A DNA stretch of 64,000 nucleotides from Qipengyuania algicida (GTDB taxonomy: Bacteria; Pseudomonadota; Alphaproteobacteria; Sphingomonadales; Sphingomonadaceae): assembly GCF_009828025.1 (NCBI RefSeq), contig NZ_WTYA01000003.1, positions 62,001-126,000 of the forward strand, written 5' to 3'. The notes beneath the pieces are model-generated. The model ran no database searches. It saw nothing but the letters and a program-made list of their open reading frames with translations, and was not told the origin of the DNA. Each line of letters starts with the position of its first letter. The stretch's first letter is position 1. A program made the position numbers and the translations under genes. Shown here in pieces: positions 10,125-60,971 of the stretch.

Positions 10125-10153
10125 CAATTTATACGCCTAGTGAGTGGTAAACA

Positions 10154-13576: not shown

Positions 13577-13818
13577 CGAATGTGCCCCATTCCGTGGAAG
13601 ACAGAAGAAATGATCAGACGGCTCAAGTGCGAGTCCTGTCGACCGCCCCTCAAAGGCTTTATGTGACGCGCTTGTTACAGCGCCAGACCCGATTATCCAC
13701 AGGCCACCATACTGGGAAATAAACAACTGAATTTACGCGTTATTCAACTGTTACATAAAGGCCACACCAAGCTGAGGAATCGCGTTTTTCTTCGCAACTG
13801 CGGAAAAACCGCAACAGG

Positions 13819-14748
13819 TCAGGCGAGATTTATCTCGCGCAGCCGCTGCTGCAGGAAGTCGTGGCTGGAAATTGGCTCAGGGTGATTCTTCGGATCAGCC
13901 GGGTCGATGCACTGGGGCAGCGTTTCGATCACGTAATCGGGCCGGAAGTGTAGGAAGAAGGGCATCGAATAGCGCGCGCGATAGGCTGCCTCGCCGCGCG
14001 GGTTCACCACCCGGTGTGTGGTCGAGCGCAATCTACCGTTGGTCAGCCGCTCGAGCATGTCGCCGATATTGACCACCAGCGCACCTTCAGGAACCTCGAT
14101 CGCCTTCCACTCGCCCTGCGCGGTCAGCAATTCAAGACCGGCTTCCTCCGCACCGAGCAAAAGGGTGATGGTGTTGATGTCGCCATGCGCTGCGGCGCGG
14201 ATCGCCCCTTCGGCATCGGCGCTCGTCAATGGCGGATAGTGCAGCAGGCGCATCACCGAATTGCCATCCTCCACCGTCGCGGCAAAGAAAGATCGCGGCA
14301 GACCAAGATGCAGCGCGATCGCTTCCAGCACGCGGGCGCCCGCGGTTTCGAATGCTTCGTAGAGCGCCGCGAAAGTCTCGCGAAACCATCGCACCTCGTC
14401 GGGCCAGACATTGGGTGCCATGAATTCGGCCAGCGGATGGCCCGCGGGCAGTTCGCGTCCGACATGCCAGAATTCCTTGAGGTCGTGGACCTCGGCGTCC
14501 TTGGCGCGCTCCACTCCGAATGGCGTGTAGCCCCGCGCACCACCGCCGCCCGCAATCTTGTACGCCATCTTGGCTTCGGCTGGGAGGGCGAAAAAGGCGC
14601 GGGAGAGTTCCTCTGCGCGATCGATCAGTTCCTGCGGGATCCCGTGGTCGCGGATCACCGCAAAGCCATATTCCTCGAAACTCTTGCCCAGATCATCGGC
14701 AACCTGTTCGAGCGGGCGGGAGATGGAAACGGAAGCGATATCGGACAT
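13819..14748 (-). CDS. 2-oxoglutarate/Fe(II)-dependent oxygenase, isopenicillin N synthase-like family
   Basis: A 309-residue enzyme with the DIOX_N N-terminal region (AVIRDHGIPQELIDRAEEL) and a double-stranded beta-helix core. Metal ligands are H188-x-D190 (AAHGDINT) and H245 (STTHRVVNP), with R259-x-S261 (RARYS) binding 2-oxoglutarate, so the active site is intact. The substrate cannot be deduced. It lies 9 bases downstream of the nucleoside transporter gene on the same strand and is surely cotranscribed, which hints at a nucleoside- or base-related substrate; that is inference. Confidence 0.85.
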   Translation of the reverse strand: MSDIASVSISRPLEQVADDLGKSFEEYGFAVIRDHGIPQELIDRAEELSRAFFALPAEAKMAYKIAGGGGARGYTPFGVERAKDAEVHDLKEFWHVGRELPAGHPLAEFMAPNVWPDEVRWFRETFAALYEAFETAGARVLEAIALHLGLPRSFFAATVEDGNSVMRLLHYPPLTSADAEGAIRAAAHGDINTITLLLGAEEAGLELLTAQGEWKAIEVPEGALVVNIGDMLERLTNGRLRSTTHRVVNPRGEAAYRARYSMPFFLHFRPDYVIETLPQCIDPADPKNHPEPISSHDFLQQRLREINLA

Positions 14749-14757
14749 TGTGCGACC

Positions 14758-16065: not shown

Positions 16066-16180
16066 GAAGTCCTCTTCGCAGATCAGTCACACGTGGGTAA
16101 AAACTTTCGCTCTCTTGCCGTTTGCCCGTCACTAGTCAATTTGGGCGGCCTTCTACCCTGTTGATCGAAGGCCCGATCCC

Positions 16181-16861
16181 GTGACCAGCGAGACCCCGCA
16201 GACCGCACCAACCATGCCCGCAATGCCGCGCGCATTATTCGTTTACCTGCTGCTTTACGGCGGGATGGCAGTGCTCGCCGGTGTGCTGGCGTTCAAGCAA
16301 TTTGCCCTTGGCACGTCAGGGCTGGCGGTCGAATCGGGGATTTTGTGTTTCCTGCTGCTGGTCGCAATCTCCAGCACCATCGCCCAGCTTTATGGCGAGG
16401 GTCTTGCCAACAGGCTGGTTCTGTGGGGATTCGTCCCGCTTGCGGTGTCGATCGCGCTGATCGGGCTGGTGCTCAACCTGCCGCCCTCACCCGATATGCC
16501 CGCAGCCAATATAGCGGCATTCGGCACGGTGCTATCACAGACGCCACGGATCATGGCGGCAGGCCCAGCCGCCTATCTCGTTTCCCTGCTGCTAAACGTG
16601 TGGCTCTTCTCGCGGCTGCGCGGCAAGGGCGACAAGCAAAGCGGCGGAATGGGAATGGTCGTACGCGGCGCAATCGCCTCCGCAATGAGCCAGGCGGTCG
16701 ATTCGCTGATCTTCATCACGCTTGCATTCTACGGCGAATTCCCGATCCGCGACCTGCTGATCGGCCAGATCATCGCCAAGGTTACGCTGTCGATAGTATT
16801 GGTACCGCTGCTGATCGCCGGTTTCGTGGCACTGGCGCGCAAGCTCGACCGGGCTGCGTGA
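16181..16861 (+). CDS. Queuosine precursor transporter, VUT/YhhQ family
   Basis: A 226-residue integral membrane protein with about six hydrophobic segments. Family features are the SSTIAQLYGEGLANR segment, SQAVDSLIFITLAFYGEFP and LLIGQIIAKVTLSIVLVPLL. Members import queuosine precursors (preQ0/preQ1 or queuine) for the tRNA wobble-base modification. The start is GTG 16181; there is no strong ribosome site. It diverges from the nucleoside transporter with 115 bases between and is followed by the tRNA-Lys gene on the other strand. Confidence 0.8.
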   Translation: MTSETPQTAPTMPAMPRALFVYLLLYGGMAVLAGVLAFKQFALGTSGLAVESGILCFLLLVAISSTIAQLYGEGLANRLVLWGFVPLAVSIALIGLVLNLPPSPDMPAANIAAFGTVLSQTPRIMAAGPAAYLVSLLLNVWLFSRLRGKGDKQSGGMGMVVRGAIASAMSQAVDSLIFITLAFYGEFPIRDLLIGQIIAKVTLSIVLVPLLIAGFVALARKLDRAA

Positions 16862-46755: not shown

Positions 46756-46769
46756 TGGTAGCGCTATCA
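46756..46769 (-). promoter_or_regulatory. LacI-type operator TGGTAGCGCTATCA at the GH9 promoter
   Basis: A 14-bp near-perfect palindrome with central CG, 26 bases upstream of the GH9 start. It overlaps a candidate minus-strand promoter: TTGCAA (46789-46794) and CATGAT (46766-46771) with a 17-base spacer. The operator would thus cover the -10 box and transcription start, suited to repression. The same 14 bases recur at 55564-55577. Confidence 0.65.
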
Positions 46770-46884: not shown

Positions 46885-47976
46885 ATGACAATATTGGGCC
46901 GCAAATATGGACGCCGCTCGGTTGCGCTCGGCCTGGGGCTGGGCGCGGGTGCATTCGGACTACTTGGCGGCGTTCCGGCTGTCGCAGGGAGCATCGGAAA
47001 GGCGGACAGCGACGAGGCGCTGCTGGCACCAGTCAATCCAGAACTGCGCAAATACGCCAGGCCGATGCTCGCGTGGCGCAAGGGGCCTCCCCTCTCACAA
47101 ACCTACCAAGCGATCCGCGAGCAGACGCAAAGCGCGATGCCTGCGCCTCTTCCCGATATCCCGGTATCGACCCAGGTTATCGAGGTGCAGGGCGGGCTTC
47201 CCGCAGTCACAGCCTATGTCATCAACGCCGGCGGCAAAAATCGTCCAGCCATTCTGCACACGCATGGCGGCGGGTTCGTGCTGGGAAGCGCAAAGTCGGA
47301 AATTCCGGCCAAACAGGCGATGGCCAGGGATTTAGACTGTGTCATCGTCACAGTGGACTACAGCCTCGCCCCCGAAGCGACCTATGCAGTCTCGGCCGAG
47401 CAGAACTACGCGGCGCTCAAATGGCTTTATCATCAAGCATCCGAACTCGGTGTCGATCCGCAGCGGATCGCAGTCATGGGAGAGAGCGCAGGCGGTGGGC
47501 ACGCCGCACTGCTGGCGATCACCGCCCGCGATCGCGGGGAGGTGCCGGTCGCGTTCCAATGCCTCATCTATCCCATGCTCGACGACCGCACCGGCAGCAC
47601 CCGAATTCCGCCCAAGCCGATCGGCGAATTGTCCTGGGATGCGCCTTCCAACCGTTTCGGTTGGCGGTCGTTTCTTGGCCAGGCTCCAGGCGGGGCGTCG
47701 GTGCCGGTTTGCGCCGTTCCCGCGCGGACCAGAAGTTTGGCGGGCCTGCCGCCAGCATTCATCGGTGTGGGATCGATCGATCTGTTCGTTGACGAGGATG
47801 TCACCTATGCTAGGCGGCTCATCGATTCAGGGATAGAAACCGGGCTGCATGTGGTGCCCGGCGCATTTCATGGATTCGACGGAGCCGCGCCGGAAACGTC
47901 GGTAGCCAAGCAATTCACCGCAGCAAAATTGAACGCGCTGCGGCGCGCGTTTGCCGCGCCGATTGCGTCCGATTGA
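46885..47976 (+). CDS. Exported alpha/beta-hydrolase (HSL-type esterase)
   Basis: A 363-residue esterase of the hormone-sensitive-lipase family. The oxyanion motif HGGGF, the nucleophile elbow GESAGGGHAALLA, DLFVDEDVTYARRL and the catalytic histidine in GAFHGFDG are present. The N-terminus has a twin arginine followed by a glycine-rich hydrophobic stretch (YGRRSVALGLGLGAGAFGLLGGVPAVAG), suggesting Tat rather than Sec export. ATG 46885 follows GAGGGAGTGACGACAG. It diverges from GH9; the 154-base gap contains the LacI-type operator, which could affect both. Its substrate may be acyl groups on the glycan, but that is inference. Confidence 0.82.
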   Translation: MTILGRKYGRRSVALGLGLGAGAFGLLGGVPAVAGSIGKADSDEALLAPVNPELRKYARPMLAWRKGPPLSQTYQAIREQTQSAMPAPLPDIPVSTQVIEVQGGLPAVTAYVINAGGKNRPAILHTHGGGFVLGSAKSEIPAKQAMARDLDCVIVTVDYSLAPEATYAVSAEQNYAALKWLYHQASELGVDPQRIAVMGESAGGGHAALLAITARDRGEVPVAFQCLIYPMLDDRTGSTRIPPKPIGELSWDAPSNRFGWRSFLGQAPGGASVPVCAVPARTRSLAGLPPAFIGVGSIDLFVDEDVTYARRLIDSGIETGLHVVPGAFHGFDGAAPETSVAKQFTAAKLNALRRAFAAPIASD

Positions 47977-48030: not shown

Positions 48031-50760
48031 CTATTCCGGCAGACGGAACACCTCGCTGGTCGCGAAGCTGGACGTCTGGACCGGAACATCGGTTCCCGGC
48101 TGCCCCGAACCGACACTGACCTCGTACCGCCCGGCCATTACTTCGCGCTGTCCATCAGGGGTGACCGCGCTCAGATCGCGCGGGCTCAGGGAAAAGCTGA
48201 TCCGCTTCGCTTCACCCGGTTGCAAATGTACCCGCTGGAACCCGCGCAGGGCAATGTTCGGTGCGCCCGGCTGATTGGGAAAGCGCAGATAAAGCTGGGC
48301 CACTTCATCACCTGCACGCTGCCCAGTGTTGCGCAGTTGCGTCGTCACCCGAAGGCCATGTTCCGCCCCACCTGCGGCTGGTTCGATCGACAGCGGACCA
48401 TAGGAAAAACTCGTGTAGCTGAGGCCGTAGCCAAACGGATAGACCGGTTTGCCGGTAAAATAGCGATATGTCCGGCCCTTCATGCGGTAATCGTCGAACG
48501 GCGGCAGATCGGCCACGCTGCGATAGAATGTCAGCGGCAGGCGACCGGCCGGATTGACCTTGCCCGACAGGACATGCGCGACTGCCAGACCGCCCGACTG
48601 CCCCGGATACCACGCTTCCAGAATGGCCGAGGCATTCTGCTTGGCCCAGGAAAGGTCCAGCGGACTTCCGTTCATCGTCACCACGATCAGCGGTTTGCCG
48701 GTCGCCTTCGCCGCCTCCAGCAAAGTCTGCTGATCGGCGGGTATATCGAGATTGGTCTTATCCCCGCCCTTGAAGCCCGGAACCTGAACAGGCGATTCCT
48801 CGGCCTCCAGATCGGACGTCAGCCCCACCACGGCGATTATTACATCCGCGTTCGCAGCGGCTTGCCGCATCGTGGCAACCGGATCGCTCGACACGCGCTT
48901 CCACGCCAGGCCGACACCGGCATCGCCCGTTTGGGCAACGCCGGTAATCTCGATCTTATATCGGTGCCCCTTCTCAAGCCTGATAGTCTTCATGGTCGGC
49001 AGGCTACCCCAGGGCGCGTTCGCCAGATCGACGAAAGGCTTGCCTTCAAAATGCATCGATCCACTCATGAAGCCCGACAGGCCCAGCCGGAATAGCCCGC
49101 TTTCCGGAGGCACCAGATAGCCGCTCCACACCACCCGATGATGGTCGGAGACTTGTGCAAGGTCGAGACTATGCCCCCCAACGCTTTCTTCGCGCCGGGT
49201 TACGACCGGGTCGTTGGCATAGGCCAAAGTCTTCTCGTAAGCGGCGCGCTGATCCGGAGTGAACGTAGCAGGCGCAGTGCCAATTGCGTTGTAATAGCGT
49301 GCGGTCAGGCCCGGCTTGCCGTCGGCTGTGCGCAACGCCGTCGCGGGTACAGGATCGCCATCCGTTACCGATTCGCCAAACGGGGCATAGCTGACCGAAA
49401 CCGATGGCAAGGCGTGGCGCAAGCCGTCGACCACCGAGATTGGCGGAGCTGAATATGGCGATGAATAATTGCCGCGCAGGACGCGGGTTGCATCGCCCAG
49501 GGGACCGATAACCGCAATGCGTTTGACCGATTTGGCCAGCGGAAGAATGCCGTTGTTCTTGAGCAGGACAAGACTCTCTTCTGCAGCCTTCAAAGCCAGT
49601 TCGCCGTGAGCAGCGGTGCCGACGTCGGCAATCGATGAGGAGGCCGTGCTGAGGGGACGCACACCCGGCAAGTCGCCATTGCGCAATCTTGCCGAAAACA
49701 GCCGTACCAGCGCACGGTCGACATCACCCACCGTGATCAGACCGCGATCAAGCGCTTCGCGATAGCGATCATCCAGACCAGCCGTATCGGACAGCGTCGC
49801 TGTGTTGCATTCGTTGTCGACACCATGACGAATAGCTGCGGTGACGGCGGTGGCCTGATCGGGCGCGTATTTGTGCGTGTCCGCAATGTCCTTGACCGCA
49901 TCGCAGTCGGATACGACGTAGCCTTGGAACCCCCATGCTCCGCGTAAATGATCGTCGAGCAGTTCGTTGCTGGCGCAAGCAGGCTGTCCGTCGATCCGGT
50001 TATAGGCGCACATGATCGAGCCCGCCTTTGCCTCGACGATCGCGGCACGGAATGCGGGCATGAAGGTGTCTTCCAGATCGTGCCGCGATACGAAGATATT
50101 GGCCTTGTGACGGGTTCCTTCCGGACCGCTATGCACGGCGAAATGCTTGGGTGTGGCAATCACATTGGGCAGGTCCGGATCGGGACCTTGAATCCCTTCG
50201 ATGAAGGCGACCCCCATGCGTGAGGTCAGAAATGGGTCCTCACCATAGGTTTCCTGTCCCCGTCCCCAGCGCGGATCGCGAAAGATGTTGATGTTGGGGG
50301 ACCAAGTGTCGAGCCCGGTCCCGATCCGTCCCATCCGCCCGGTCTTGCGGGCAAGCGCGTGGAGCCCACGCAGTTCGATGCTGATGTCGCCCGCCACCGA
50401 CTTGACCAGCGGCGCATCGAAGCTGGCACCCAGACCGATCGGTTCGGGAAAATTGGTCGTCGGCACCGTACCAAGTGCGCCGTGCAGGGATTCGGTCCAC
50501 CAATTGTAGGCCGGAATGCCAAGGCGCGGAATTGCCGGAGCCGTATTCAACAGTTGCTTCAGCTTCTCATCCAGCGTCATTTTCGCGACCAGCTGGGCGG
50601 CGAGTTGATCAGCGTGCGCGCGCACCGGCGCGACTGCCGCCGTGTTGTCGCTATCCCCGGGGGCCGTTGCCGACAGCGTATGCATCGGCCATGCCAGCGC
50701 CGATGCGACGACGAATGCTGAAGCCAGCAATTGTGTTCGCTGAAACCGGATTTTCTGCAC
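48031..50760 (-). CDS. Secreted GH3 glycosidase, beta-xylosidase/arabinofuranosidase type, with PA14-like insert
   Basis: A 909-residue enzyme with a signal-like N-terminus, a GH3 N-terminal barrel containing YNWWTESLHGAL and nucleophile D285 (VVSDCDAV), a PA14-like insert (about 460-600: GYLVPPESGLFRLGLSGF), the second GH3 domain, and a C-terminal fibronectin III-like domain. NWWTESLHG and SDCDAV are typical of the plant/Trichoderma beta-xylosidase group rather than plain beta-glucosidases. GTG 50760 is chosen because GAGAGGGTACGCA precedes it; the frame extends to TTG 50838 but would overlap the halogenase. It is the third gene of the receptor-halogenase-GH3 operon. Confidence 0.87.
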   Translation of the reverse strand: MQKIRFQRTQLLASAFVVASALAWPMHTLSATAPGDSDNTAAVAPVRAHADQLAAQLVAKMTLDEKLKQLLNTAPAIPRLGIPAYNWWTESLHGALGTVPTTNFPEPIGLGASFDAPLVKSVAGDISIELRGLHALARKTGRMGRIGTGLDTWSPNINIFRDPRWGRGQETYGEDPFLTSRMGVAFIEGIQGPDPDLPNVIATPKHFAVHSGPEGTRHKANIFVSRHDLEDTFMPAFRAAIVEAKAGSIMCAYNRIDGQPACASNELLDDHLRGAWGFQGYVVSDCDAVKDIADTHKYAPDQATAVTAAIRHGVDNECNTATLSDTAGLDDRYREALDRGLITVGDVDRALVRLFSARLRNGDLPGVRPLSTASSSIADVGTAAHGELALKAAEESLVLLKNNGILPLAKSVKRIAVIGPLGDATRVLRGNYSSPYSAPPISVVDGLRHALPSVSVSYAPFGESVTDGDPVPATALRTADGKPGLTARYYNAIGTAPATFTPDQRAAYEKTLAYANDPVVTRREESVGGHSLDLAQVSDHHRVVWSGYLVPPESGLFRLGLSGFMSGSMHFEGKPFVDLANAPWGSLPTMKTIRLEKGHRYKIEITGVAQTGDAGVGLAWKRVSSDPVATMRQAAANADVIIAVVGLTSDLEAEESPVQVPGFKGGDKTNLDIPADQQTLLEAAKATGKPLIVVTMNGSPLDLSWAKQNASAILEAWYPGQSGGLAVAHVLSGKVNPAGRLPLTFYRSVADLPPFDDYRMKGRTYRYFTGKPVYPFGYGLSYTSFSYGPLSIEPAAGGAEHGLRVTTQLRNTGQRAGDEVAQLYLRFPNQPGAPNIALRGFQRVHLQPGEAKRISFSLSPRDLSAVTPDGQREVMAGRYEVSVGSGQPGTDVPVQTSSFATSEVFRLPE

Positions 50761-50834: not shown

Positions 50835-52376
50835 TCAAACCGGCTGAAGGCCGAAATCGACGATCTTTCGAATCAAATCCCTGTGGCGTGGCAATCCCGC
50901 TCGTAGCCGTTCTGTCTGAACCGCATTCTGCCGCAACTCGCTGTGCGCCTGACGTGTTTCGCCCGCCAGCATCGCAGGATCCACCCGGGTGCGAAATCCC
51001 ATGCCATAGAGCACGTATTGATAGCTGGCCGGCGGGAAGACCTCTTCCACCCGATCGAATTCGTCATGGAACCAGGGCGCCTGATATTCCCACAGCAGCA
51101 TCAGTTCCTGCAACCGGTCTGGGATCGATCCGGGACGAACATTGTCGCACCAGAAATCGCTGTCACGGCGCTGTGTGAGGACATAGTGCAGCTTCAGAAA
51201 GTCGATGATCCGGCCCCAACGGTAATCCGTGGTTGCGTTGAAGCGCTTGGAGATGACATCCATCACTTCGCGGCAGGCAGGCATCTGCTCTGCGATGAGC
51301 TTTGCCGAAAGCTCGATTAACACGATTGCCGACGCCTCGAGCGGTTCGAGAAAACCGGCGGCGAGCCCGATAGCGACGCAATTGCGCTTCCAGAAAGTCT
51401 CGCGCCTCCCGGCACGAATGGGGATTTTGCGGAACGATAGTTGGTCGCCCGACGGGCCGAGGTATGTCCGCAGCTCGCGCTCGGCATCATCGTCATCAAT
51501 GTGCCCGCTGGAATAGACATAGCCGATGCCGCGGCGGCTAGGCAGACCGATATCCCAGATCCAACCTGCTGATTGTGCAGTCGATATCGTCTGTGACGCT
51601 ATCGGCGAATCTTCGCTCTCATAAGGCATCTGAACCGCCAGAGCGGTATCGCAGAACAGGACGTCGTCGCATCCCTTGAACGGGACTCCCAGCGCTTCAC
51701 CGATAAGCAGGGCCTTGAAGCCGGTGCAGTCGACGAACAAGTCGCCTTCGATCTCACCTGCCTGTTCAGTCATGACCGAATGGATGTCGCCGTCCTCGGT
51801 CATCGCGACCTTCTGGACATCGGCAAGGACATGTCGAACGCCGAGCTTTTCAGTGCAATGACGCTGGAGGAAGGGAGCGAACTTGCCCGCATCGAGATGG
51901 TAGGCGTAATTGGCAAGCGCCTCGAACTCGGGCGTCGTCAGCGTCTTGGGCGCAAGCCCATCGTCGCAAATGCGCCCTTGGGGGCAGACCGCATCGCAGA
52001 AGCTGGTGCCATTGCCGCCCTCCAGCCAGTGCGGCACCAGATTGAGGCGGGAAAATCCCTGCGGCAGCATCAGCGGATGATAATAGGCATCGTCCGGGGC
52101 ACCGGTCGTCCAGCCCGCAAATTTCGCGCCCTGCTTGAAGGCCGCATCGCATTCACGGAAGAAATCGGTTTCCGATACGCCAATACGCGCAAGCGTTGTC
52201 CTCAGCGTAGGCCAGGTCCCCTCCCCCACGCCGATAATAGGAGTGTTCGGCGATTCGACAAGCGTCACGGAAAAACCGTGCGGCATCCGGCCCTTGTGCT
52301 TTGCCGCGATAATTCCGGCGGTCAGCCAACCGGCCGTCCCGCCGCCCACGATAACGATGCGCTTAACTGGTTTCAT
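50835..52376 (-). CDS. Flavin-dependent (tryptophan 7-halogenase family) halogenase
   Basis: A 513-residue FAD-dependent halogenase. The dinucleotide motif GGGTAGW is at residues 11-17, VGEGTWP at 50-56, the catalytic-lysine region FKQGAKFAGW at 80-89 (K81), and the WxWxIP region reads WIWDIG (272-277). NLVPHWLEGGNG, LFVDCTGF and FLEPLEASAI also fit. The family chlorinates or brominates tryptophan, indole or related aromatics using FADH2 from a separate reductase. Here the gene sits between a TonB receptor (65-base gap) and a GH3 gene (74-base gap) and has a weak ribosome site. Its role in glycan use is unknown. Confidence 0.85.
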   Translation of the reverse strand: MKPVKRIVIVGGGTAGWLTAGIIAAKHKGRMPHGFSVTLVESPNTPIIGVGEGTWPTLRTTLARIGVSETDFFRECDAAFKQGAKFAGWTTGAPDDAYYHPLMLPQGFSRLNLVPHWLEGGNGTSFCDAVCPQGRICDDGLAPKTLTTPEFEALANYAYHLDAGKFAPFLQRHCTEKLGVRHVLADVQKVAMTEDGDIHSVMTEQAGEIEGDLFVDCTGFKALLIGEALGVPFKGCDDVLFCDTALAVQMPYESEDSPIASQTISTAQSAGWIWDIGLPSRRGIGYVYSSGHIDDDDAERELRTYLGPSGDQLSFRKIPIRAGRRETFWKRNCVAIGLAAGFLEPLEASAIVLIELSAKLIAEQMPACREVMDVISKRFNATTDYRWGRIIDFLKLHYVLTQRRDSDFWCDNVRPGSIPDRLQELMLLWEYQAPWFHDEFDRVEEVFPPASYQYVLYGMGFRTRVDPAMLAGETRQAHSELRQNAVQTERLRAGLPRHRDLIRKIVDFGLQPV

Positions 52377-52395
52377 ACGAAATACCGGTCAGGTT

Positions 52396-52431
52396 GATGG
52401 GAGGATGCAGGATAGCCCACGTCCTCCCATC
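52396..52431 (-). terminator. Intercistronic hairpin between TonB receptor and halogenase genes
   Basis: GATGGGAGGA (52396-52405) pairs perfectly with TCCTCCCATC (52422-52431), starting 10 bases after the receptor stop. No T-run follows on the minus strand, so it more likely protects the receptor message or partly terminates transcription than ends it fully. Confidence 0.45.
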
Positions 52432-52441
52432 CTTCCACTTT

Positions 52442-55405
52442 CTAGAACCGGTACCGAACTCCGGCGGTAATCCGGCGTCCATAACCGTAGACGTCGAGCA
52501 GCTGGTTCGAAAACCGGCCATGCGTGCTCTGCGTCTCGTTAGTCAGATTGGTGACTTCCCCGAACACATTGATCGCAGGCGTAATCTGATAGCTTGTGCT
52601 GAGATCGATCTGCGTGCTCGCATTGACGAAGGTTGGTTCTGTCCCGAACTGGCTGGTGTTCTGCACCTGATTGAACTGGAGCAGATATTCGTCACGCCAG
52701 TTGACCGCGGCCCGGAACTCGAAACCATATTTGTCGAAGAAGCCGACGAAGTTGGCCGAATTGGCAAGCCCCGTAACGGCAAAACCGCTCTGCGATATGT
52801 CGTTTGGATCATAGGGCTTATTCGTATCGACGAATGTGGCGTTGGCGATGAAGCCGAAGCCACTGTCGCCGAAGGTGTGCTGCAAGGCAAGTTCGACACC
52901 ACGTACCGTCGCGTCGGGGCCGTTGACCTGTTGTGTCACGGCGAAGACAGCTGGCTGCCCGGTCGACGGATCGATCACTCCGTTAATCGTCTGCCTCGTA
53001 GTGCCGCCAATGATGAAATTGGAGACGTTCTTGAGGAAGAAGTCGACCGACAGATACGAGTTGCGCTGATAATACCATTCCGCCGCAAGGTCGAAGTTAT
53101 CCGACAGATACGGCATCAGATTGGGATTGCCCCCATTGGCCGTCAGCGCGTTGAGTCGCTGACCGGTCCCCACGTTCAACACCGGCGTCAGCAAGTTTAG
53201 CGTTGGCCGGGTGAGCGTCCGTGAAGCATCGAAGCGCAGGATCAAATTGTCGGTCAAACCCAGCTTCGCGTCCAGCGCAGGAAGCAAATAACTGTAGTTG
53301 TTCTTGTTGGTCACCATCGATTGCGGACCGAAGTTGACGGTTAGAAGAGTCGGATCGGTGTCGCTGGGAGTTATCGAAATCGGCAGCTGGCCGAGCCCAG
53401 TTGACGTGAGGTGAGTGTTCTCTTCCCTCACACCGGCGTTGAGCGTAAATGGCATATTGCCAATGTCAGCCGTAAAGCGTGCCTTGAAATAAAGCGCCCA
53501 GGTCTTCTCGTTGATATTCCGGAAGCTCCCGACGTCATTGGCAACATCGAATGTGCCGGTAAATGCAGTGCCGCAGCAGCTGTAGTTATAGCCAGGAATA
53601 TTGGTCGTTTGCGGATTGCCGAGGCTTGTCAGGTAAGCTTGATAAGCCGGACCGGAAAAATTGATCAAGGTTGGCGGCAACATCCCGCTGAAACCTGGAA
53701 TGAAGTTGTCGGTGCTTACCATACCTTGATAAAGGCTGGTCGGGATCGATACGCCACCGGAAGTACCCGAAGCCGGACCGTAGCCCGAATAGGCCTGCCA
53801 GAAGTTGTTGGCGAAGGTGTTTGCACTGCGGAACTCGAACGTGTCGTCGAGATATGAGCCGCCAATCCACAACGTGAGATTGTCACTACTCCACTTCGCC
53901 CCGAGTCGGCCCTGCTTCAGCACATCAGTGTTCTTATTGGCAATGTTGACTGTAACGTGTGAGCCAATAGCGGACGTGTCAGCCCAGCGGCTCGGGTCGC
54001 TGTTAACGCCGAAATTAGACAACGACGGGAAGCTGTTCTTGCTGTCTCCGTTGATCGAATATTCGAGGTCCGGCCCGATCCCGAAACCGTAGCCGATGTC
54101 GGCGTCCCGCTCGTTGACGCGCCCATCCGGGTTCAGCCAGCTCTTGGAATAGGAGCCGTCGGCCTCGATTTCGAGATTGTCGTTGACGTTCCATTTGATG
54201 TTGAGGCCGGTCTGGTTTGTCCGGCGCACGTTGCTCTGCGATCCGGCCGTAAAGTCGGTCTGCGAATTTGCCTGAGTGAAGTCGAGCGGCACACCGTTTT
54301 CGTCGAGCTTCACATTACGAAGCGAGCCCTGATTGAACCAGAAGCCAAAGCCGAAAGTGTCGGTGTTTACCCGTTGGTCGGAGAAATTGTCATCCAAGGT
54401 AACCAGAAGATTGTCCGACGGCTTCCATTGCAACGCGATTCGCGCATCTACGCGCTCGTCCTTCGTATAGGACTGCTGCGCGCCATATTGCTGCGGGAAG
54501 AAGCCGACCACATTTTGGCGGTTATTGGGATCTGCCCAGGCAGTCGAAGTTGAATCGCTAGTCGGCGAACATGTCGCTGCACTGGCATTCCCCGCCAATT
54601 GACAAGGCGCGTAATAGCCACCCGGGAAACCGTGGTTATAGACGTTGTTCGTCCGCGTATCATGGCGCGTGTAGATGACATCGGCCAAGATACCGAAAGT
54701 GTCGTCGGCAAAGGTATCGCTGAACAGCAGCCCGCCGGCAGGCACGATCTTCTTCGCGTAGTTCTGAGTCGACCCAGATGCAGTGGCGGCGATATGCAGT
54801 CCCGGCCGATCGAAAGGCTTGGGATAAGCGATATTGACTGTTGCCCCGATCGAATTGGAGCTCACTGCAACATCTGGAGTCTTGTAGACCTGCAAGGCAC
54901 CAATGAAGTCCGAACCGACCGTACTGAAGTCGATCGAACGTCCACCTGTTGCTGTCGAGAGCTTACGTCCATCGACCAAGGTCTCGTTGAAGTCTCCGCC
55001 AAAACCACGCACGGAAATACCATTGGCGTCGCCACGAACACCGTCGCGCTGGATCGAAATACCAGGAAGGCGCTGAAGCGATGCCGCCACGTTGGAATCG
55101 GGAAACTTGCCGATATCCTCGGACGAAATGACATCGATAATGCCCGACGCATTGCGCTTTTCATCGAGGTTCCGCTGTAGCGAACCACGGATGCCCGTAA
55201 CAATGATAACATTGTTTGGATCCGCTGTTGCAGTCGACGAGTCTGTCGTCGAAGTCGCCGCAGTTGAATTGTCCTGCGACGTCGACGCATCTTGGGCAAA
55301 TGCAGGCGAGGAGCCAACTAATGCCAGTGCGCTTGAAACGGTTAGAGCCAAAACGCTCTTTCGACGGCGCCAAGCCAACGACGAATGCCGATTAAAGCCA
55401 GTCAT
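52442..55405 (-). CDS. TonB-dependent receptor of the polysaccharide locus
   Basis: A 987-residue outer-membrane receptor with a Sec signal peptide (cleavage likely after A37, SPAFA|QD), a Ser/Thr/Asp-rich linker, a TonB-box-like NNVIIVTGIRGSL, a plug domain (about 85-210: IGKFPDSNVAASLQRLPGISIQRDG, ISVRGFG, GAT/VNIAYPKPFDRPG) and a beta-barrel ending in aromatic phenylalanine (GVRYRF). It belongs to the carbohydrate-type receptors of Caulobacter/Xanthomonas/sphingomonads and presumably imports oligosaccharides released by the neighbouring enzymes. ATG 55405 has GGGAGGATAG upstream. It is the first gene of the receptor-halogenase-GH3 operon, with a long leader of about 130 bases. Confidence 0.92.
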   Translation of the reverse strand: MTGFNRHSSLAWRRRKSVLALTVSSALALVGSSPAFAQDASTSQDNSTAATSTTDSSTATADPNNVIIVTGIRGSLQRNLDEKRNASGIIDVISSEDIGKFPDSNVAASLQRLPGISIQRDGVRGDANGISVRGFGGDFNETLVDGRKLSTATGGRSIDFSTVGSDFIGALQVYKTPDVAVSSNSIGATVNIAYPKPFDRPGLHIAATASGSTQNYAKKIVPAGGLLFSDTFADDTFGILADVIYTRHDTRTNNVYNHGFPGGYYAPCQLAGNASAATCSPTSDSTSTAWADPNNRQNVVGFFPQQYGAQQSYTKDERVDARIALQWKPSDNLLVTLDDNFSDQRVNTDTFGFGFWFNQGSLRNVKLDENGVPLDFTQANSQTDFTAGSQSNVRRTNQTGLNIKWNVNDNLEIEADGSYSKSWLNPDGRVNERDADIGYGFGIGPDLEYSINGDSKNSFPSLSNFGVNSDPSRWADTSAIGSHVTVNIANKNTDVLKQGRLGAKWSSDNLTLWIGGSYLDDTFEFRSANTFANNFWQAYSGYGPASGTSGGVSIPTSLYQGMVSTDNFIPGFSGMLPPTLINFSGPAYQAYLTSLGNPQTTNIPGYNYSCCGTAFTGTFDVANDVGSFRNINEKTWALYFKARFTADIGNMPFTLNAGVREENTHLTSTGLGQLPISITPSDTDPTLLTVNFGPQSMVTNKNNYSYLLPALDAKLGLTDNLILRFDASRTLTRPTLNLLTPVLNVGTGQRLNALTANGGNPNLMPYLSDNFDLAAEWYYQRNSYLSVDFFLKNVSNFIIGGTTRQTINGVIDPSTGQPAVFAVTQQVNGPDATVRGVELALQHTFGDSGFGFIANATFVDTNKPYDPNDISQSGFAVTGLANSANFVGFFDKYGFEFRAAVNWRDEYLLQFNQVQNTSQFGTEPTFVNASTQIDLSTSYQITPAINVFGEVTNLTNETQSTHGRFSNQLLDVYGYGRRITAGVRYRF

Positions 55406-55549
55406 TCTATCCTCCCATATTCACCGACCGATTTGATTCGGTTCGGTTGTCGTTTTCAGTTCGACTCATTCCGCGTCAGGGCAGTTGGTCAGCCGGACAC
55501 ACCAACAATTTGGCGACTGGCACCTGATCCTTGGACACGTTATAGTCGG

Positions 55550-55578
55550 ACAATAACATTGCATGGTAGCGCTATCAA
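55550..55578 (-). promoter_or_regulatory. Candidate promoter of the TonB receptor operon
   Basis: On the minus strand TTGATA (55573-55578) and TATTGT (55550-55555) are 17 bases apart. The -35 box lies within the LacI-type operator at 55564-55577, so repressor binding would exclude polymerase. Transcription would start about 55540. Confidence 0.4.
55564..55577. promoter_or_regulatory. LacI-type operator TGGTAGCGCTATCA between receptor and SapC genes
   Basis: Identical in all 14 bases, including its one asymmetric position, to the site at 46756-46769. It sits in the 293-base gap between the divergent receptor and SapC-family genes, 159 bases from the former start and 122 from the latter. Confidence 0.65.
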
Positions 55579-55698
55579 TAGGGATTTATCATCCTGGCTG
55601 AATAATGCCGCAACTTGGCCTGCATTCAGTCATCGGATAATCATCAAGCAGACGCTCGGCACCGGTCGTACGTGTTGCAGAAGCAACGGGAGTTAAAA

Positions 55699-56385
55699 GT
55701 GAAACTGGAAGCATTAGATTGCGAAACGCATGCAGAGCTGCGCCTGAGTCGCCGCGTGCCGGATATTCCTCATTTCGTGGAAATTGTTGCCAGCGAGTTC
55801 GTGTCCGCCGCCACATGTTGCCCGATTTTCTTCACCAAGAGTCCAGAAACCGGTGCGTTTTATGTCGGTGCCCTGTTTGGCTTCAAACCAGGCGAAAATC
55901 TAGTCGCCGCCGGCAACAGTGGACCTCCGGCATTTATCCCACTGGATCGACAGCGCGCCGGATTCTTCGTGTCGGGCGATCACATTGCCGTCGACCTTGA
56001 CGACCCGCGCCTATCCAGTTCGGAACAGTCTGCGGAACAGCTTTTCGATAGCGATGGACAGCCTGCCCCCGCCTTGAGACAGATTCAGCGTCAGCTGACA
56101 GCATTGGTCGAAGGTAAGCACGAAACTGATATATTTATCAATGATTTACTTAAACTTAAGCTGATCGAGCCAATCGACGTTTCGCTCCGTTTCGACGATG
56201 GAGAGCAGATGACGTTGGAGGGGCTTTATACCGTCAGCCTGGATGGGCTGGCAGAGATCGACGATGCCGACGCTCTGCGACTGTTCCGCAATGGTCATCT
56301 GCAACTGGCTTACGCGATCAACGCCTCTCTCAAGCAGGTCGCGGTGCTGGCCGAGAGGCGAAATCGACTTCTCGCCGAGATATGA
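55699..56385 (+). CDS. SapC-family protein
   Basis: A 228-residue cytoplasmic-looking protein of the family named SapC after a Campylobacter S-layer-associated protein. Conserved features are ASEFVSAATCCPIFFTKSPETGAFYVGALFGFKPGENL, the proline-rich PPAFIPLDRQRAGFFV, LFDSDGQPAPALRQIQRQL, and the EPIDVSLRFDDGEQMTLEGLYTVS module. No catalytic motif is visible. In sphingomonads, caulobacters and xanthomonads such genes accompany TonB receptors, cupin-8 proteins and halogenases; the function is unknown. The GTG start at 55699 follows GGGAGTTAAAA. The ATGA overlap couples it to the next gene. Confidence 0.8.
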   Translation: MKLEALDCETHAELRLSRRVPDIPHFVEIVASEFVSAATCCPIFFTKSPETGAFYVGALFGFKPGENLVAAGNSGPPAFIPLDRQRAGFFVSGDHIAVDLDDPRLSSSEQSAEQLFDSDGQPAPALRQIQRQLTALVEGKHETDIFINDLLKLKLIEPIDVSLRFDDGEQMTLEGLYTVSLDGLAEIDDADALRLFRNGHLQLAYAINASLKQVAVLAERRNRLLAEI

Positions 56386-57410
56386 GGAACACAGCCAAAT
56401 CCGACGTCCAGGCCTGGAATGGGCCGTTGGCGAACGACTGGGAAACTTTCCGGGGCGATGTCGCTGTAAATTGCGTGCCTGTCGTTTTCCGGCAAGCGCT
56501 CAACGACTGGCCTGTCATACAAACAGCCCGTCGTTCACGGAATGATTTGACTGACTATTTGCGAGCACATGCGACCGGCAATAGGGTACAGCTATTCTGC
56601 GGTGCACCGGACATCACGGGGCGCTATTACTACGACGATAATCTCGACGGGTTCAATTTCGATCGCAAGATTGCAACGATCGCCAATTCGCTCGATTACA
56701 TCATGGCCTGTGTCGCCGATACCAAGCTTGGGACTGCCTATCTCGGCTCCTTACCGGCAGACAGCAACTTTCCCGGATTTTCCGATGAGAACACGGTAGC
56801 CTTCCTGCCTGAAGGGGTCGAGCCGCGAATCTGGATAGGCAACGCGTCCAGCGTGGCGTGCCATTACGACACCTTCGACAACCTTGCCTGCGTCGTGGCG
56901 GGGCGCCGGACCTTCACTCTCTATCCGCCGGAAGCAATCGGCGATCTCTATGTCGGCCCGATCGACCATACTATGGCAGGGCAGCCGGTAGGGCTTGCGG
57001 TCCAGGCTCCATCTGGTGACCCACGTTATCCGCGCTTTGAGAGTATCCGCGAGCACGCCCTCGAGGTTACGCTTGAACCGGGCGACGCCCTCTATCTGCC
57101 AAAACTGTGGTGGCATCAGGTGGAAGCGAGCGAACCGCTCAATATGCTGGTCAATTACTGGTGGGATGGATTTAGCGCAGGGCCGGATGCACCTTTGACA
57201 ACACTTATGCTCGCAATGATTGCCATTGCCGAACGACCAGAGCGCGAGAGAGCGGCGTGGCACACGTTTTTTGATCACTATGTTTTTCGACCCGAACGCC
57301 ATCCGCTGGAGCATCTGCCCCCGGACAAGCACGGAATTCTGGGGCCGTTGTCTGAAGGCAATTACCGCAAGGTTCGCGCAGCTGTAATGCAGATGCTGCG
57401 CGGCGTTTAG
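56382..57410 (+). CDS. Cupin-8 / JmjC-like Fe(II) oxygenase domain protein
   Basis: A 342-residue protein with the cupin-8 fold of factor-inhibiting-HIF-like hydroxylases. Metal ligands appear intact: H161-x-D163 (VACHYDTFDN) and H245 (LPKLWWHQVEA), within RRTFTLYPPE and EPGDALYLP. The family hydroxylates amino-acid side chains in proteins or small molecules using 2-oxoglutarate. The gene overlaps the SapC gene by ATGA, and the pair diverges from the receptor-halogenase operon. A target such as the receptor or a glycan-linked aromatic is speculation. Confidence 0.82.
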   Translation: MRNTAKSDVQAWNGPLANDWETFRGDVAVNCVPVVFRQALNDWPVIQTARRSRNDLTDYLRAHATGNRVQLFCGAPDITGRYYYDDNLDGFNFDRKIATIANSLDYIMACVADTKLGTAYLGSLPADSNFPGFSDENTVAFLPEGVEPRIWIGNASSVACHYDTFDNLACVVAGRRTFTLYPPEAIGDLYVGPIDHTMAGQPVGLAVQAPSGDPRYPRFESIREHALEVTLEPGDALYLPKLWWHQVEASEPLNMLVNYWWDGFSAGPDAPLTTLMLAMIAIAERPERERAAWHTFFDHYVFRPERHPLEHLPPDKHGILGPLSEGNYRKVRAAVMQMLRGV

Positions 57411-57501: not shown

Positions 57502-59589
57502 CTAGGATGAGCTCGAAAACTCGAATATCGCAACGGAAGTAGGCGGCACCTCCAGCGCGTTGTCGAAGGCCTGAACCTGCTGCTTCTGGATGGTCACGCC
57601 CGACGTCTCTCCAACCTTGTTCGCCGCATCAATGGATGTTCCAGTGAGCAGCCAGCGCAAGCCCTTGCCATGCAACGATATACCGGAGAGCTGAACGGAA
57701 ACCCGACGCTTTTCATAGGTTGGATTGACGACCGCGATTTTCAGTGTCCTGCCATCACCAGAAAGCCCGGCGATCATGTCGAGCGGATAGGTGGCGCTGC
57801 CCGCTTTCACCTGCGGGTGGTCATAACCGACCGAGTATTTGGGATCGGGCTGCGGCGAATTGCCGGTGACAGCCAGCGGCACCGTGCCTGCCCCGAAATG
57901 CTCTCCATAAAGTTTGAACACGAGGCCGGTCGTGTTGAGCACAGCGCCTGTCGGCGTGATATCCATGGTCGATGCGCCGGTGGTGAATGCGCTCATCTTC
58001 AGGAAATCGGTGTGGCGGAGCATTTCCTGCATGACCATCGAATAGGCGAGCGCCGATTTGAGCGTGGCTGGCCCGAAATAGGCATATTCATCTATCGACA
58101 GGAAGATGTGATCGGTATCGATCTTGGGAAAGCGCTCGCGATAGATCTGCCACTCGTCCGCCTTCATACGCACTTGGTTCGACGGCGACCGCGCATATTC
58201 GATCAGTTCCAGGTCGGGCGGTGCATTGGGACGCTCCTCAGCCCGATCGTACCAGTGTTCGCTGACACCGGAGAAATTTCCCCAGGCTTTCTCGAACAGC
58301 CCCCCAGTCCAGTCCTGTTCGGTGCCGAACTTGTGCTGAATGCTGGCGAGCGAAGGATTTTCCTTGGCGTCGCGGGGCTTAAGCTGATCCGGCATTGCGC
58401 CGGAACCGATCAACACGATCGACGGATCTTGCGCCCGCATGGCCGCTGCAAAGCGGTTGTGCTTAATCATGAAATAATCGAGCGAAGTCTTGCCAATCTG
58501 CCACCAGCCATAAGGTTCGTTGCCGATGTTCCAGAACTTGACGCCATAGGGCTGCGGATGACCATTGGCTGCGCGCTTGGCACCCCATTCGCTCGACGGC
58601 GAACCGTTGAGATACTGGACTTCTTCGGCCGCGGAATTGGCATCGCCGAGGCCCGCGTTCACGGTAACATACGGCTGCACGCCAAGGATGCGCGTCAACT
58701 CCATCCACTCGTCCATGCCGAGGTCGTTGGGCTGCATGGCGCTCCAAGCGTGATCGAACATCGGAGCGCGCCTGTCACGCGGACCGATTGCCTCGTGCCA
58801 ATCCCAATCGGACAGGAAATTGCCGCCCGGCAGGCGCCAGAACCCCGAATTGAGAGAGCGCGCAATCGCAGTGGTATCAGCACGCCAGCCGTCGATATTG
58901 TCGCTCGGCATCAGTGAAATCGCGTCGATACGGAAATGCCCTGTGCCAGTCCCGGTGATTTCGATCCGGGCTTCACTGTCGCTCGCTGTCGGTTCGAACG
59001 AAAAATCGGCGCGGCGCCAATCCGCATCGGGCGTTGGCAGCGAAACCGTCTGTCGATCCCTTACGCCGGGCCCCCAGACCAGCGAAACCTGCACCTTGGC
59101 CCCGGGATCCCCGCTGAACCAGAGGTGGCCCAAATAGGTCTTCCCCGCCGCAACGCCGATACCCGACTGGCGCAACCCGCGGGGCGTTGATCCATCGAGC
59201 ATAACGCTGGGCGACTGCGCGCCTACGAAGGCGTGATTACGGTCCATGACCACCACGCCATCTTCGCCGATAGGCCGCCACTTGCGATAGGTGACACCTG
59301 GCCGCCCTTCCGCATTGGGCGGAGGCGGCTTGTCCTGGGCAGCAGAGACGACCGGAAAGTAGAATTTCCGATCATCGAGCATCTCGGCCCACAAGGTGCG
59401 TGCAACCAGGGAACCGATTGGTTCGATGAACATGCCATAGGCGTATGGGGTGACCGGTGCGGCGCGTTTGCCGGCGTCGATCGTCGCCGTAACCTTGCCC
59501 GGCAGATCAGCCGATGCCGGGCTGGCGTTTGCGACCATGAGGGAGGACAGAAACGCCGCCACGATCCATTTTGAATGCCTTGCCGCCAT
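57502..59589 (-). CDS. Secreted GH51 alpha-L-arabinofuranosidase (with CBM4-like insert)
   Basis: A 695-residue enzyme with a signal peptide (about 1-27, ending SPASA|D). A beta-sandwich resembling CBM4/9 at about residues 140-235 (KTYLGHLWFSGDPGAKVQVSL, FRIDAISLMP) precedes the TIM barrel. The acid/base is E358 (WNIGNEPYG) and the nucleophile E501 (SIDEYAYF). This arrangement is that of the eukaryote-like, secreted GH51 subgroup acting on arabinoxylan or arabinan side chains. It is convergent with the cupin-8 gene and divergent from the esterase-GH27 operon. Confidence 0.9.
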   Translation of the reverse strand: MAARHSKWIVAAFLSSLMVANASPASADLPGKVTATIDAGKRAAPVTPYAYGMFIEPIGSLVARTLWAEMLDDRKFYFPVVSAAQDKPPPPNAEGRPGVTYRKWRPIGEDGVVVMDRNHAFVGAQSPSVMLDGSTPRGLRQSGIGVAAGKTYLGHLWFSGDPGAKVQVSLVWGPGVRDRQTVSLPTPDADWRRADFSFEPTASDSEARIEITGTGTGHFRIDAISLMPSDNIDGWRADTTAIARSLNSGFWRLPGGNFLSDWDWHEAIGPRDRRAPMFDHAWSAMQPNDLGMDEWMELTRILGVQPYVTVNAGLGDANSAAEEVQYLNGSPSSEWGAKRAANGHPQPYGVKFWNIGNEPYGWWQIGKTSLDYFMIKHNRFAAAMRAQDPSIVLIGSGAMPDQLKPRDAKENPSLASIQHKFGTEQDWTGGLFEKAWGNFSGVSEHWYDRAEERPNAPPDLELIEYARSPSNQVRMKADEWQIYRERFPKIDTDHIFLSIDEYAYFGPATLKSALAYSMVMQEMLRHTDFLKMSAFTTGASTMDITPTGAVLNTTGLVFKLYGEHFGAGTVPLAVTGNSPQPDPKYSVGYDHPQVKAGSATYPLDMIAGLSGDGRTLKIAVVNPTYEKRRVSVQLSGISLHGKGLRWLLTGTSIDAANKVGETSGVTIQKQQVQAFDNALEVPPTSVAIFEFSSSS

Positions 59590-59837: not shown

Positions 59838-60971
59838 ATGGGTAACGCGTCAGGCCACGATATCAGCGCAACCGTTCGTCACAGTGTTGGATGGCAACGC
59901 GTCCATCTCCGGATCGGCAGGCTGGTGCTCTTGATGGTCACCGCGTTGTTTTTCGTACCCGCTTGCGCGCAAGTGGGAACGCACGTCCCCCCGCCAATCA
60001 GCAGTGCGCCGCAAGTGACGGTCCAGCGGATCACTGTCCACTCCCCTGCGATCGAGGGGAATCTGGAAGGCGAAAGCCCCGACCGGCACGTGATCGTGAT
60101 CCTTCCGCCGGGTTACGCCAGCCATCCCCACGCCCGCTATCCGGTGGTTTACGCGCTGCACGGATATTCGATCGGCGCTGAGCAATGGATCAAGGAAATC
60201 CACGTCCCCCAGACGATCGAGGGCGCCTATGCCAAGGGAGCGCGCGAATTCATCGTCGTGCTGCCCGACAGCAAAACGATCCACAACGGCTCTATGTATT
60301 CAAGCTCGATCACCACGGGTAATTTCGAACGCTTCATCGCACATGATCTGGTGCGCTATATCGACGCGCATTACCGCACCGTTCCACGACGCGAGAGCCG
60401 CGGACTGGTCGGCCATTCGATGGGCGGATATGGCGCCACCCGCATCGGGATGAAGCATTCCGACGTATTCGGCGCGCTCTATATCATGAGCCCATGCTGT
60501 CTCTCACCACGCGATCCGGCACAGTTCGATCCGGCGGTCATGGCGAAGCTTGCGGCAGTGCCCTCACTGGAGGCGGCGACCAAGCTGAACTGGGGTGAAC
60601 GCGCCATACTCGCGAGCGCGGCGGCCTGGTCGCCCGACCCGAAAAATCCTCCGCTATATCTCGATCTGCCGATGAAGGACGGGAAGGTCCAAACAGGCGT
60701 GATCGCCCGCTGGACGGCCAATGCTCCGCTGGCGTTTATCGATCAGTATATCGACGGCCTGAAACGCTATCGCGCCATTGCGATAGACGTCGGCGACAAG
60801 GATGGCCTGCGGTTCGATGCAACGAAGCTGCACGACATCCTCGACAATTATGGGATTGCCAACGGTTTTGAGATTTATCCCGGTACACACACCAGCGATG
60901 TCGCATTCCGGTTTCAGAATCATGTGATGCCGTTTTTCAGCAAATATCTTGAATTTGAGGGTAGGCACTGA
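59838..60971 (+). CDS. Exported esterase of the feruloyl/CE1-like alpha/beta-hydrolase group
   Basis: A 377-residue hydrolase with an N-terminal hydrophobic signal (about 30-48, LVLLMVTALFFVPAC) that could be a lipoprotein signal (VPAC) or a Sec signal. Core features are YPVVYALHGYSIGAEQWI, the nucleophile elbow GHSMGGYGA, the acid in VGDKDGLRFD, and the histidine in YPGTHTSDVAF. It resembles tributyrin esterase/esterase D and CE1 feruloyl esterases. ATG 59838 has GAGGGGCAC upstream; a TTG 8 codons earlier is less likely. It is 3 bases from the GH27 gene, so they share a transcript, and it may remove acyl or feruloyl decorations. Confidence 0.8.
   Translation: MGNASGHDISATVRHSVGWQRVHLRIGRLVLLMVTALFFVPACAQVGTHVPPPISSAPQVTVQRITVHSPAIEGNLEGESPDRHVIVILPPGYASHPHARYPVVYALHGYSIGAEQWIKEIHVPQTIEGAYAKGAREFIVVLPDSKTIHNGSMYSSSITTGNFERFIAHDLVRYIDAHYRTVPRRESRGLVGHSMGGYGATRIGMKHSDVFGALYIMSPCCLSPRDPAQFDPAVMAKLAAVPSLEAATKLNWGERAILASAAAWSPDPKNPPLYLDLPMKDGKVQTGVIARWTANAPLAFIDQYIDGLKRYRAIAIDVGDKDGLRFDATKLHDILDNYGIANGFEIYPGTHTSDVAFRFQNHVMPFFSKYLEFEGRH

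Follow-up and report, generated by a model that had tools for sequence, protein, structure and literature searches.

What does a flavin-dependent halogenase (FDH) do beside an outer-membrane sugar receptor, and why do a SapC-family gene and a 2-oxoglutarate (2OG) oxygenase gene stand next to both? The question is raised by a stretch of 64,000 nucleotides from Qipengyuania algicida, hereafter the window (bases 62001-126000 of contig C15; the genome comprises 3.2 Mb in 21 contigs). A preliminary description of this DNA had placed a TonB-dependent receptor, an FDH, a GH3 glycosidase, a SapC gene and a JmjC-like cupin gene inside a hemicellulose locus. Gene identities were assigned here by Pfam and NCBIfam profile matches against the curated family cut-offs, which bear out the described genes and their positions, with every core call far above its family cut-off. 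The receptor belongs to the TonB-Xanth-Caul family and carries both plug and barrel (52442-55405, minus strand; TIGR01782, 575 bits, cut-off 310), and the FDH is a type I member of the Trp_halogenase family (50835-52376, minus strand; PF04820, 406 bits, cut-off 21). On the plus strand, diverging from the receptor, FDH and GH3 genes, are a SapC-family gene encoding 228 amino acids (55699-56385; PF07277, 162.5 bits, cut-off 28.9) and a JmjC-type 2OG oxygenase gene of the Cupin_8 family (56382-57410; PF13621, 199 bits, cut-off 27.4). The start of SapC is moved, most likely, to the GTG at 55699 rather than the TTG at 55615 that opens the longest frame, because GGGAG precedes the GTG codon. The SapC and Cupin_8 genes overlap by the described ATGA (56382-56385). 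The receptor and FDH genes, said to be cotranscribed, share a strand with 65 bp between them, and their cotranscription is likely.

A conserved block at TonB receptors

The receptor, FDH and SapC genes, usually accompanied by a 2OG oxygenase gene, form a conserved block that spans two classes and recurs more often than expected by chance. We scanned a genome collection with type I FDH sequences alone and obtained at least 595 stretches, of which the best 80 were kept; these loci are the nearest relatives and do not sample FDHs at random. They come from sphingomonads, Caulobacter, Nitrospirillum, Rhizomicrobium, Emcibacter, Cellvibrio, Alteromonas, Pseudoalteromonas, Paraglaciecola, Microbulbifer and others. 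Six-frame profile searches identified SapC in 77 and a TonB receptor in 78 of the 80 loci, as the preliminary description had anticipated for halogenases and SapC/cupin proteins at TonB receptors. In each locus where a core gene was missed (L120, L140, L159 and L163), the contig ends close to the FDH.

In every one of the 75 loci measured for gene order, the window included, the receptor closest to the FDH precedes it on the same strand, with a median gap of 68 bp and a gap above 300 bp in three loci (L197, L163 and L162). Among 71 loci, SapC lies downstream on the same strand in 36 (median gap 23 bp) and diverges across the receptor in 35. The latter is the form found in the window, which looks like a rearrangement of a receptor-FDH-SapC-Cupin_8 operon. 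Distances within the block are correlated (0.84-0.91 over 43 loci), showing joint inheritance, not contact. We conclude that the block is a real, conserved and uncharacterised addition to TonB sugar-uptake loci. In three loci (L190, L192 and L194, about 7000-16250) one set of FDH, SapC and DUF6445 genes is flanked by two receptors, the second of them convergent, and this set may serve both.

No description of the receptor/FDH/SapC/2OG oxygenase block was found among the matches listed from open-access full texts, a search that leaves out most subscription journals and gives weak evidence of absence. The words 'tonb', 'receptor' and 'sapc' are absent from an mSystems survey of FDHs (PMC8269204). 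Three candidate reports were rejected: 'SapC' in PMC4911050 is a clay, SapCa; a tryptophan halogenase appears in PMC11340318 only as one transposon hit; and PMC11337851 reports FDH and receptor expression separately.

The halogenase

The window FDH carries the flavin adenine dinucleotide (FAD) motif GGGTAGW, Lys81, the motif WIWDIGLP and Glu344, and so bears the marks of the FDH family. Lys81 and Glu344 are kept in all 78 rows of a type I FDH alignment that includes the window. Its closest solved relative is PDB 2pyx (558 bits), nearer than 6frl (281 bits) or 6y1w (238 bits), a ranking that describes sequence relationship only. We follow PMC7336383 in assigning 6frl to BrvH and 6y1w to Xcc4156, two enzymes of the same Pfam family with the same catalytic residues. 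Both count among the open-site brominases, which prefer bromide. Their native substrates are described as unknown or doubtful; neither enzyme halogenates free tryptophan, their sites are open, and peptides have been suggested as substrates (PMC5945002, PMC7336383). The word 'tonb' occurs in neither paper, and 'sapc' does not occur in the text on BrvH. Residues 155-171 of 6nsd are without a counterpart in the window FDH (the RebH-type loop lies outside the comparison). The position given for the Th-Hal loop in PMC7336383 is near this missing stretch, whose absence would fit the short loops reported there for BrvH and Xcc4156. FDHs require FADH2, oxygen and halide (PMC7336383).

In a small FDH tree the nearest row to the window FDH comes from outside its class (L091, 59% identity); the larger FDH scan contains sphingomonad relatives at 81%. 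A PHROGs search returned the family name for the FDH, which places FDHs in phages as well, and a weak, unnamed match for Cupin_8.

The FDH looks cytoplasmic because its FAD motif stands at the N-terminus, and SapC and Cupin_8 are read as cytoplasmic because they lack a signal-like start. A rough screen for signal peptides by hydrophobicity had no value as a test: the pass rate was 78% for FDHs, 52% for receptors, 6% for SapC and 2% for Cupin_8 proteins, and the sole Cupin_8 to pass is the window's own, with a hydrophobic stretch near residue 27.

The same genome holds ten FDHs, three SapC, four Cupin_8 and seven TonB-Xanth-Caul receptors above cut-off. All ten FDHs are in a locus with a TonB-type outer-membrane protein, which in L020 is an Oar-like barrel accompanied by DUF6445. 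They fall into type I (the window FDH and one from locus L016, 48% identical) and type II. The order in L016 is receptor, FDH, SapC, Cupin_8, FDH and, by our own reading, a LacI-like gene. A degenerate paralogue in another locus (L017, 13909-15369, minus strand) has lost the FAD motif and the catalytic Lys and Glu and persists among four FDHs next to a receptor.

Two oxygenase types in one slot

The metal ligands of Cupin_8, described as intact, are so across its alignment: His161 and Asp163 occur in 49 of 49 aligned rows, the window included, and His245 in 48, the remaining row having a gap. With these HxD...H iron ligands, Cupin_8 is predicted to be a JmjC-type 2OG oxygenase. Its closest solved relatives are JMJD7, FIH and JMJD5, at low similarity (49 bits at best). 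JmjC enzymes such as these act on proteins, and FIH and JMJD7 hydroxylate them. They resemble Cupin_8 in the retained metal ligands and differ from it in that Cupin_8 is bacterial and receptor-linked here.

Of the 80 FDH loci, 55 carry Cupin_8 and 11 carry DUF6445; none carries the two together and 14 carry neither. Two loci of a separate SapC survey, L071 and L073, carry both. DUF6445 was found in 2 of 60 genomes in a family search, both times beside an FDH. In 15 sequences His112, Asp114, His204 and Arg222 are invariant (L071 numbering). A structure model of DUF6445 (predicted local distance difference test, pLDDT, 94.6) gave 18 Foldseek matches at E<=0.001, with probabilities of 0.98-1.00 and template-modelling scores of 0.35-0.52. 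One is an uncharacterised protein; the rest we take, from title or general knowledge, to be 2OG-type enzymes. By its modelled fold and its HxD...H...R pattern, DUF6445 would thus be a 2OG-Fe(II) oxygenase. A search of the DUF6445 sequence profile against PDB found no relative, and the SapC and DUF6445 profile searches against PDB gave between them a single chance-level match (E 0.27). The filling of one slot by Cupin_8 and DUF6445, unrelated 2OG oxygenase subfamilies, suggests that this chemistry is selected there, though not at every locus.

A second Cupin_8 gene lies just past the window (L023, 7865-8917, plus strand). It overlaps the end of a GH3-like gene, has no FDH beside it and belongs to the operator-marked region described below.

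Receptors with and without a halogenase

Linkage to an FDH is not a property of every receptor of the family. In the stretches read, receptors above cut-off have an FDH in five of seven cases in the Q. algicida genome and in five of ten in G024, a genome of the same family. Outside the sphingomonad family the count is none of six testable receptors (three in G159, one in G171 and two in G152; L215 is cut by a contig end). In a 68-row receptor tree (FastTree; deepest forks weak), the FDH-free label requires 3 changes, compared with 13.7 when labels are shuffled, and a value as low was reached in 0 of 500 shuffles. The window receptor is placed in a clade rich in FDH-linked members. The linkage looks like an old trait of one receptor lineage.

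When aromatic residues distinguishing the FDH-linked receptors were sought, W356 (window numbering) emerged. It is the only invariant Trp, present in 38 of 38 receptors of the SapC clade, in 2 of 7 other FDH-linked receptors and in 4 of 14 FDH-free receptors. As a candidate modification site, W356 is only a lead.

SapC

SapC was identified in 54 of 150 genomes of the phylum. The SapC survey fetched 95 stretches; SapC was called as a gene in 87, and 12 hold an FDH, counting L048, where the setting is different. The structure of the window protein was modelled with high confidence (72 sequences; pLDDT 96.2, predicted template-modelling score 0.90). The model has no Foldseek match at E<=0.001 in PDB (best 0.44) or BFVD and no VIA match at Z>=2 among 996 chains, and the sequence has none in PDB at E<=1; such absences do not prove a new fold.

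The loci in which SapC stands alone are informative about its company. At least one export component (SecA-like, HlyD, M50/HlyD, TolC or GspD) is encoded in 13 of 75: M50/HlyD and SecA-like together in 8, another SecA-like protein in 1, TolC in 4 and GspD in 1. A PpiC-type isomerase is encoded in 8 of the 75. The same export and isomerase seeds found nothing in the 80 FDH loci or in 18 receptor controls, a comparison that favours the result since the seeds came from the stand-alone loci. These associations are only suggestive of SapC keeping company with exported proteins.

Four proteins from three genomes fuse SapC to one membrane span, a Pro/Ser/Thr-rich spacer and a C-terminal stretch (L110:8992-10890, L114:7966-9705, L115:8032-9696 and L109:8980-10416). 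Their layout is similar to that of TonB, and the C-terminal stretches of the L114 and L115 proteins are 62% identical over 92 residues. The L110 fusion gene is 2.7 kb from a GspD secretin gene, and those of L110 and L114 are near TolC-like genes. In these fusions the SapC domain precedes the membrane span and, by our own reading of the positive-inside rule, would lie in the cytoplasm.

The name-giving member of the family, SapC of Campylobacter fetus, is encoded with the type I secretion genes of an S-layer protein, a setting in line with the export genes near stand-alone SapC here. We know of no FDH or receptor at that locus. The family name itself is uninformative about function here.

Two further settings of stand-alone SapC were observed. 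A short SecA-like ATPase and an M50/HlyD protein are encoded near it in L026 (6734-11790), L032, L034, L039, L040, L041, L050 and L067, with a further HlyD gene in 7 of these 8 loci, possibly an undescribed export system. Genes of the NeuB type for nonulosonic acid synthesis are near SapC in 6 of the 75 loci (L033, L036, L037, L038, L043 and L072).

Glycan context and regulation

The hemicellulose setting reported for the window is clear from its glycoside hydrolase (GH) and related genes: GH9 (44247-46730, minus strand; PF00759), GH3 (minus strand; PF00933/PF01915), an alpha-L-arabinofuranosidase (57502-59589, minus strand; PF06964), a GH27-type gene and esterase-type genes (Pfam/NCBIfam; 59838-60971 and 46885-47976, one of which weakly matches a xylanase/feruloyl-esterase model). 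Beyond the window are GH31, GH5, GH67, GH10, GH95 and GH43. The GH3 gene, 3' of the FDH, occupies 48031-50760 or extends from 50838, the ATG at 50760 being the more likely start. It is locus-specific cargo rather than core, as are the GH9 and arabinofuranosidase genes; only some of the sphingomonad loci have a GH3 gene behind the FDH.

Neighbours were tallied in two sets of loci. In ten loci of the window type (nine sphingomonad, one Caulobacter), 70 neighbours of at least 250 amino acids were considered; the top 25 of 45 families include GH3 (7), GH43, GH27-type and esterase (5 each), arabinofuranosidase C-terminal domain and SASA (4 each), and GH95 and GH9 (3 each). In 16 gammaproteobacterial loci, 95 of 126 listed neighbours were scanned; the top 25 of 121 families include the major facilitator superfamily, GH16 and FecR (5 each) and an agarase carbohydrate-binding module (3). 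Among other SapC-linked sets, those of L112 and L116 adjoin alpha-galactosidase genes and those of L093 and L101 alpha-glucuronidase genes. L158 showed no carbohydrate-active enzyme (CAZyme) of the types sought by seed; the receptor is preceded there by a FecR gene and, by our own reading, a probable sigma gene. Because the glycan genes vary while the core stays, the block belongs to the receptor, not to one polysaccharide. Of the earlier proposal that the two oxidising enzymes are joined to glycan import, conservation at sugar receptors stands; a tie to a particular polysaccharide does not.

The divergent receptor/SapC region contains a palindromic operator, GGTAGCGCTATCA (55565-55577, plus strand), probably of LacI type, which we take to resemble the xylose operator of Caulobacter. 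The palindrome GGTAGCGCTANCA is shared by this site and by a second exact copy at 46757-46769 (plus strand), between the divergent GH9 and alpha/beta-hydrolase genes. Within one mismatch, the operator is found in 26 of 35 homologous divergent regions, all of them related, compared with 2 of 700 mononucleotide shuffles. Looser matches are no more frequent than chance: within the window 5 are found with at most two mismatches, where 3.6 are expected, and genome-wide there are 19 with at most one, compared with 87 for a reversed control pattern. It is the exact copies and the conservation that support the operator. Shuffled sequences contained promoter- and terminator-like sites no less often than the real ones.

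Exact copies in the genome comprise 7 matches at 6 sites, all inside a 58 kb hemicellulose region (C15:108757-166408). This stretch includes a LacI gene (C15:144847-146016), GH67, GH10, GH31 and GH5 genes, two receptors, and genes that resemble an oxidative pathway for breaking down pentoses (aldehyde dehydrogenase, short-chain dehydrogenase, SMP-30 and IlvD/Edd); GH9, GH95 and GH43 lie at or just past its ends. A single regulon probably covers the GH genes together with the FDH. Carbohydrate-utilisation (CUT) loci of Xanthomonas and Caulobacter reportedly combine a TonB receptor with CAZymes, a sugar transporter and a LacI-type regulator. The window would qualify as such a locus from its receptor, CAZymes, LacI regulator, sugar transporter (our own reading) and common operator, to which the regulator presumably binds. 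It differs by the addition of the conserved FDH/SapC/2OG oxygenase set, and the word 'halogenase' does not occur in PMC1790865 on CUT loci.

What the block may act on

Our reading is that the block serves to modify oxidatively, in the cytoplasm, either the receptor precursor or a different exported polypeptide, with SapC as the presenter. We infer the target, and give this reading a probability of a little under 0.4. The FDH and the oxygenase would act in the cytoplasm and halogenate or hydroxylate an envelope-bound polypeptide, most likely the receptor precursor before or during its export. SapC would be a cytoplasmic, export-linked factor that holds or presents this polypeptide, and the modification would tune receptor assembly, partner binding or gating, not glycan chemistry. 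We look to the receptor because linkage and order are fixed, the glycan genes are variable and FDH-free receptors cluster on the tree; to a peptide substrate because the FDH relatives BrvH and Xcc4156 have been proposed to act on peptides, SrpI and MibH do so and the solved structures nearest to Cupin_8 are of enzymes that act on proteins; and to an export link for SapC because stand-alone SapC occurs near export and isomerase genes and SapC fusions have a membrane span. The single slot taken by either Cupin_8 or DUF6445 also speaks for this reading. Among the targets offered by the preliminary description, the receptor gains weight and glycan chemistry loses it.

Several observations weigh against this reading. 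The modified residue and the protein contact are things we infer, while the block, the catalytic sites, the sharing of the operator and the two oxygenase types are observed. Linkage alone would fit a small-molecule product too. Many receptors of the TonB-Xanth-Caul family are without an FDH (5 of 10 in G024, 6 of 6 testable in other families), and many rows of the receptor tree were found through their FDH, which aids clustering. Of 8 second receptors without a clear FDH partner, 7 have W356 too; the residue may be structural or may simply characterise the SapC clade. SapC is dispensable for FDH linkage, since only 3 of the 10 FDHs of the genome are in SapC loci (the window and L016), and most SapC genes stand alone, 75 of 87 being without an FDH; the genomes that pair SapC with export genes include close relatives. 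Neither oxygenase is found in 14 of the 80 loci, 11 of them core-complete and the other three cut, so hydroxylation would not be obligatory.

A narrower version, which we regard as possible and would not favour, is a dedicated modification system of Proteobacteria for outer-membrane sugar receptors, in which SapC presents the precursor to the FDH and a 2OG hydroxylase and particular residues required by the receptor are oxidised before export. Another conceivable role is protection: TonB receptors double as phage receptors and FDHs occur in phages, and from this we raise the idea that the FDH might shield the receptor from phage. Should the narrower version hold, BrvH-like halogenases would gain a native substrate, and SapC and DUF6445 a function. 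Were the receptor the target, a halogenated or hydroxylated transporter would represent, to our knowledge, a bacterial protein modification of a new kind. The anatomy of the block narrows the substrate of BrvH-like enzymes to a few candidate polypeptides and provides first functional hypotheses for SapC and DUF6445, families without known function.

The main rival, unlikely in our view and still to be taken seriously, is that the FDH and oxygenase produce or degrade a small molecule of aromatic or indole type, a signal of glycan availability or a receptor cargo, with SapC as an enzyme or carrier. In vitro, BrvH and enzymes of the Xcc type accept free indole for halogenation (PMC5945002, PMC7336383); the authors of the BrvH study doubt that indole is the natural substrate, as activity is low (PMC5945002). 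The LacI-type or FecR-linked regulatory settings of the block would suit a signal, and the best fold matches of the DUF6445 model include small-molecule 2OG oxygenases. The block, however, keeps its receptor while the glycan context changes, and the loci read, in which part of the neighbours were assigned, contain no further recurring biosynthetic gene.

It is improbable that the FDH and oxygenase modify a peptide natural product whose precursor is encoded elsewhere and which the receptor imports or senses. The combination of FDH, 2OG oxygenase and receptor does resemble peptide tailoring, and SrpI and MibH are FDHs that brominate or chlorinate Trp within peptides (PMC10858898, PMC10286304). 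These two sit with their precursor peptides, whereas the core described here, with median gaps of 68 and 23 bp, leaves little room for one: the precursor gene beside tailoring enzymes that characterises clusters for ribosomally synthesised and post-translationally modified peptides was not seen within it, an unlinked precursor not having been searched for. We hold it to be just as improbable that the FDH is a redox or halide sensor or a scaffold rather than an enzyme acting on a substrate. The degenerate L017 paralogue, which keeps its place despite the loss of the FAD motif and both catalytic residues, speaks for such a role; against it, the catalytic Lys and Glu are kept throughout the type I alignment.

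The substrate first suggested, ferulate or some other aromatic group carried by the glycan, now appears very doubtful. The esterase-type genes of the window, with the one weak xylanase/feruloyl-esterase match, would accord with it, but the same block occurs with agarase and GH16, with alpha-galactosidase (L112, L116) and in L158, which showed none of the CAZyme types sought; moreover, the glycan lies outside the cell and the FDH looks cytoplasmic. That unrelated genes merely hitch-hike in a regulated region, to which a probable common regulon of the GH genes and FDH would lend itself, is hardly credible: gene set and order are the same in two classes, and one slot takes either of two oxygenase types.

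Halogenases in other settings

Two further FDH arrangements fall outside the receptor/FDH/SapC block. In L020 (9520-15093) an FDH gene occurs with genes for an Oar-like outer-membrane barrel (OMP_b-brl_4) and DUF6445, with no SapC in the stretch read; the FDH/2OG pair thus adjoins another receptor type too. L048 encodes a protein of 793 amino acids (13248-15629, minus strand) that joins an FDH domain to an unassigned C-terminal part, beside an O-methyltransferase gene and 3.5 kb from SapC.

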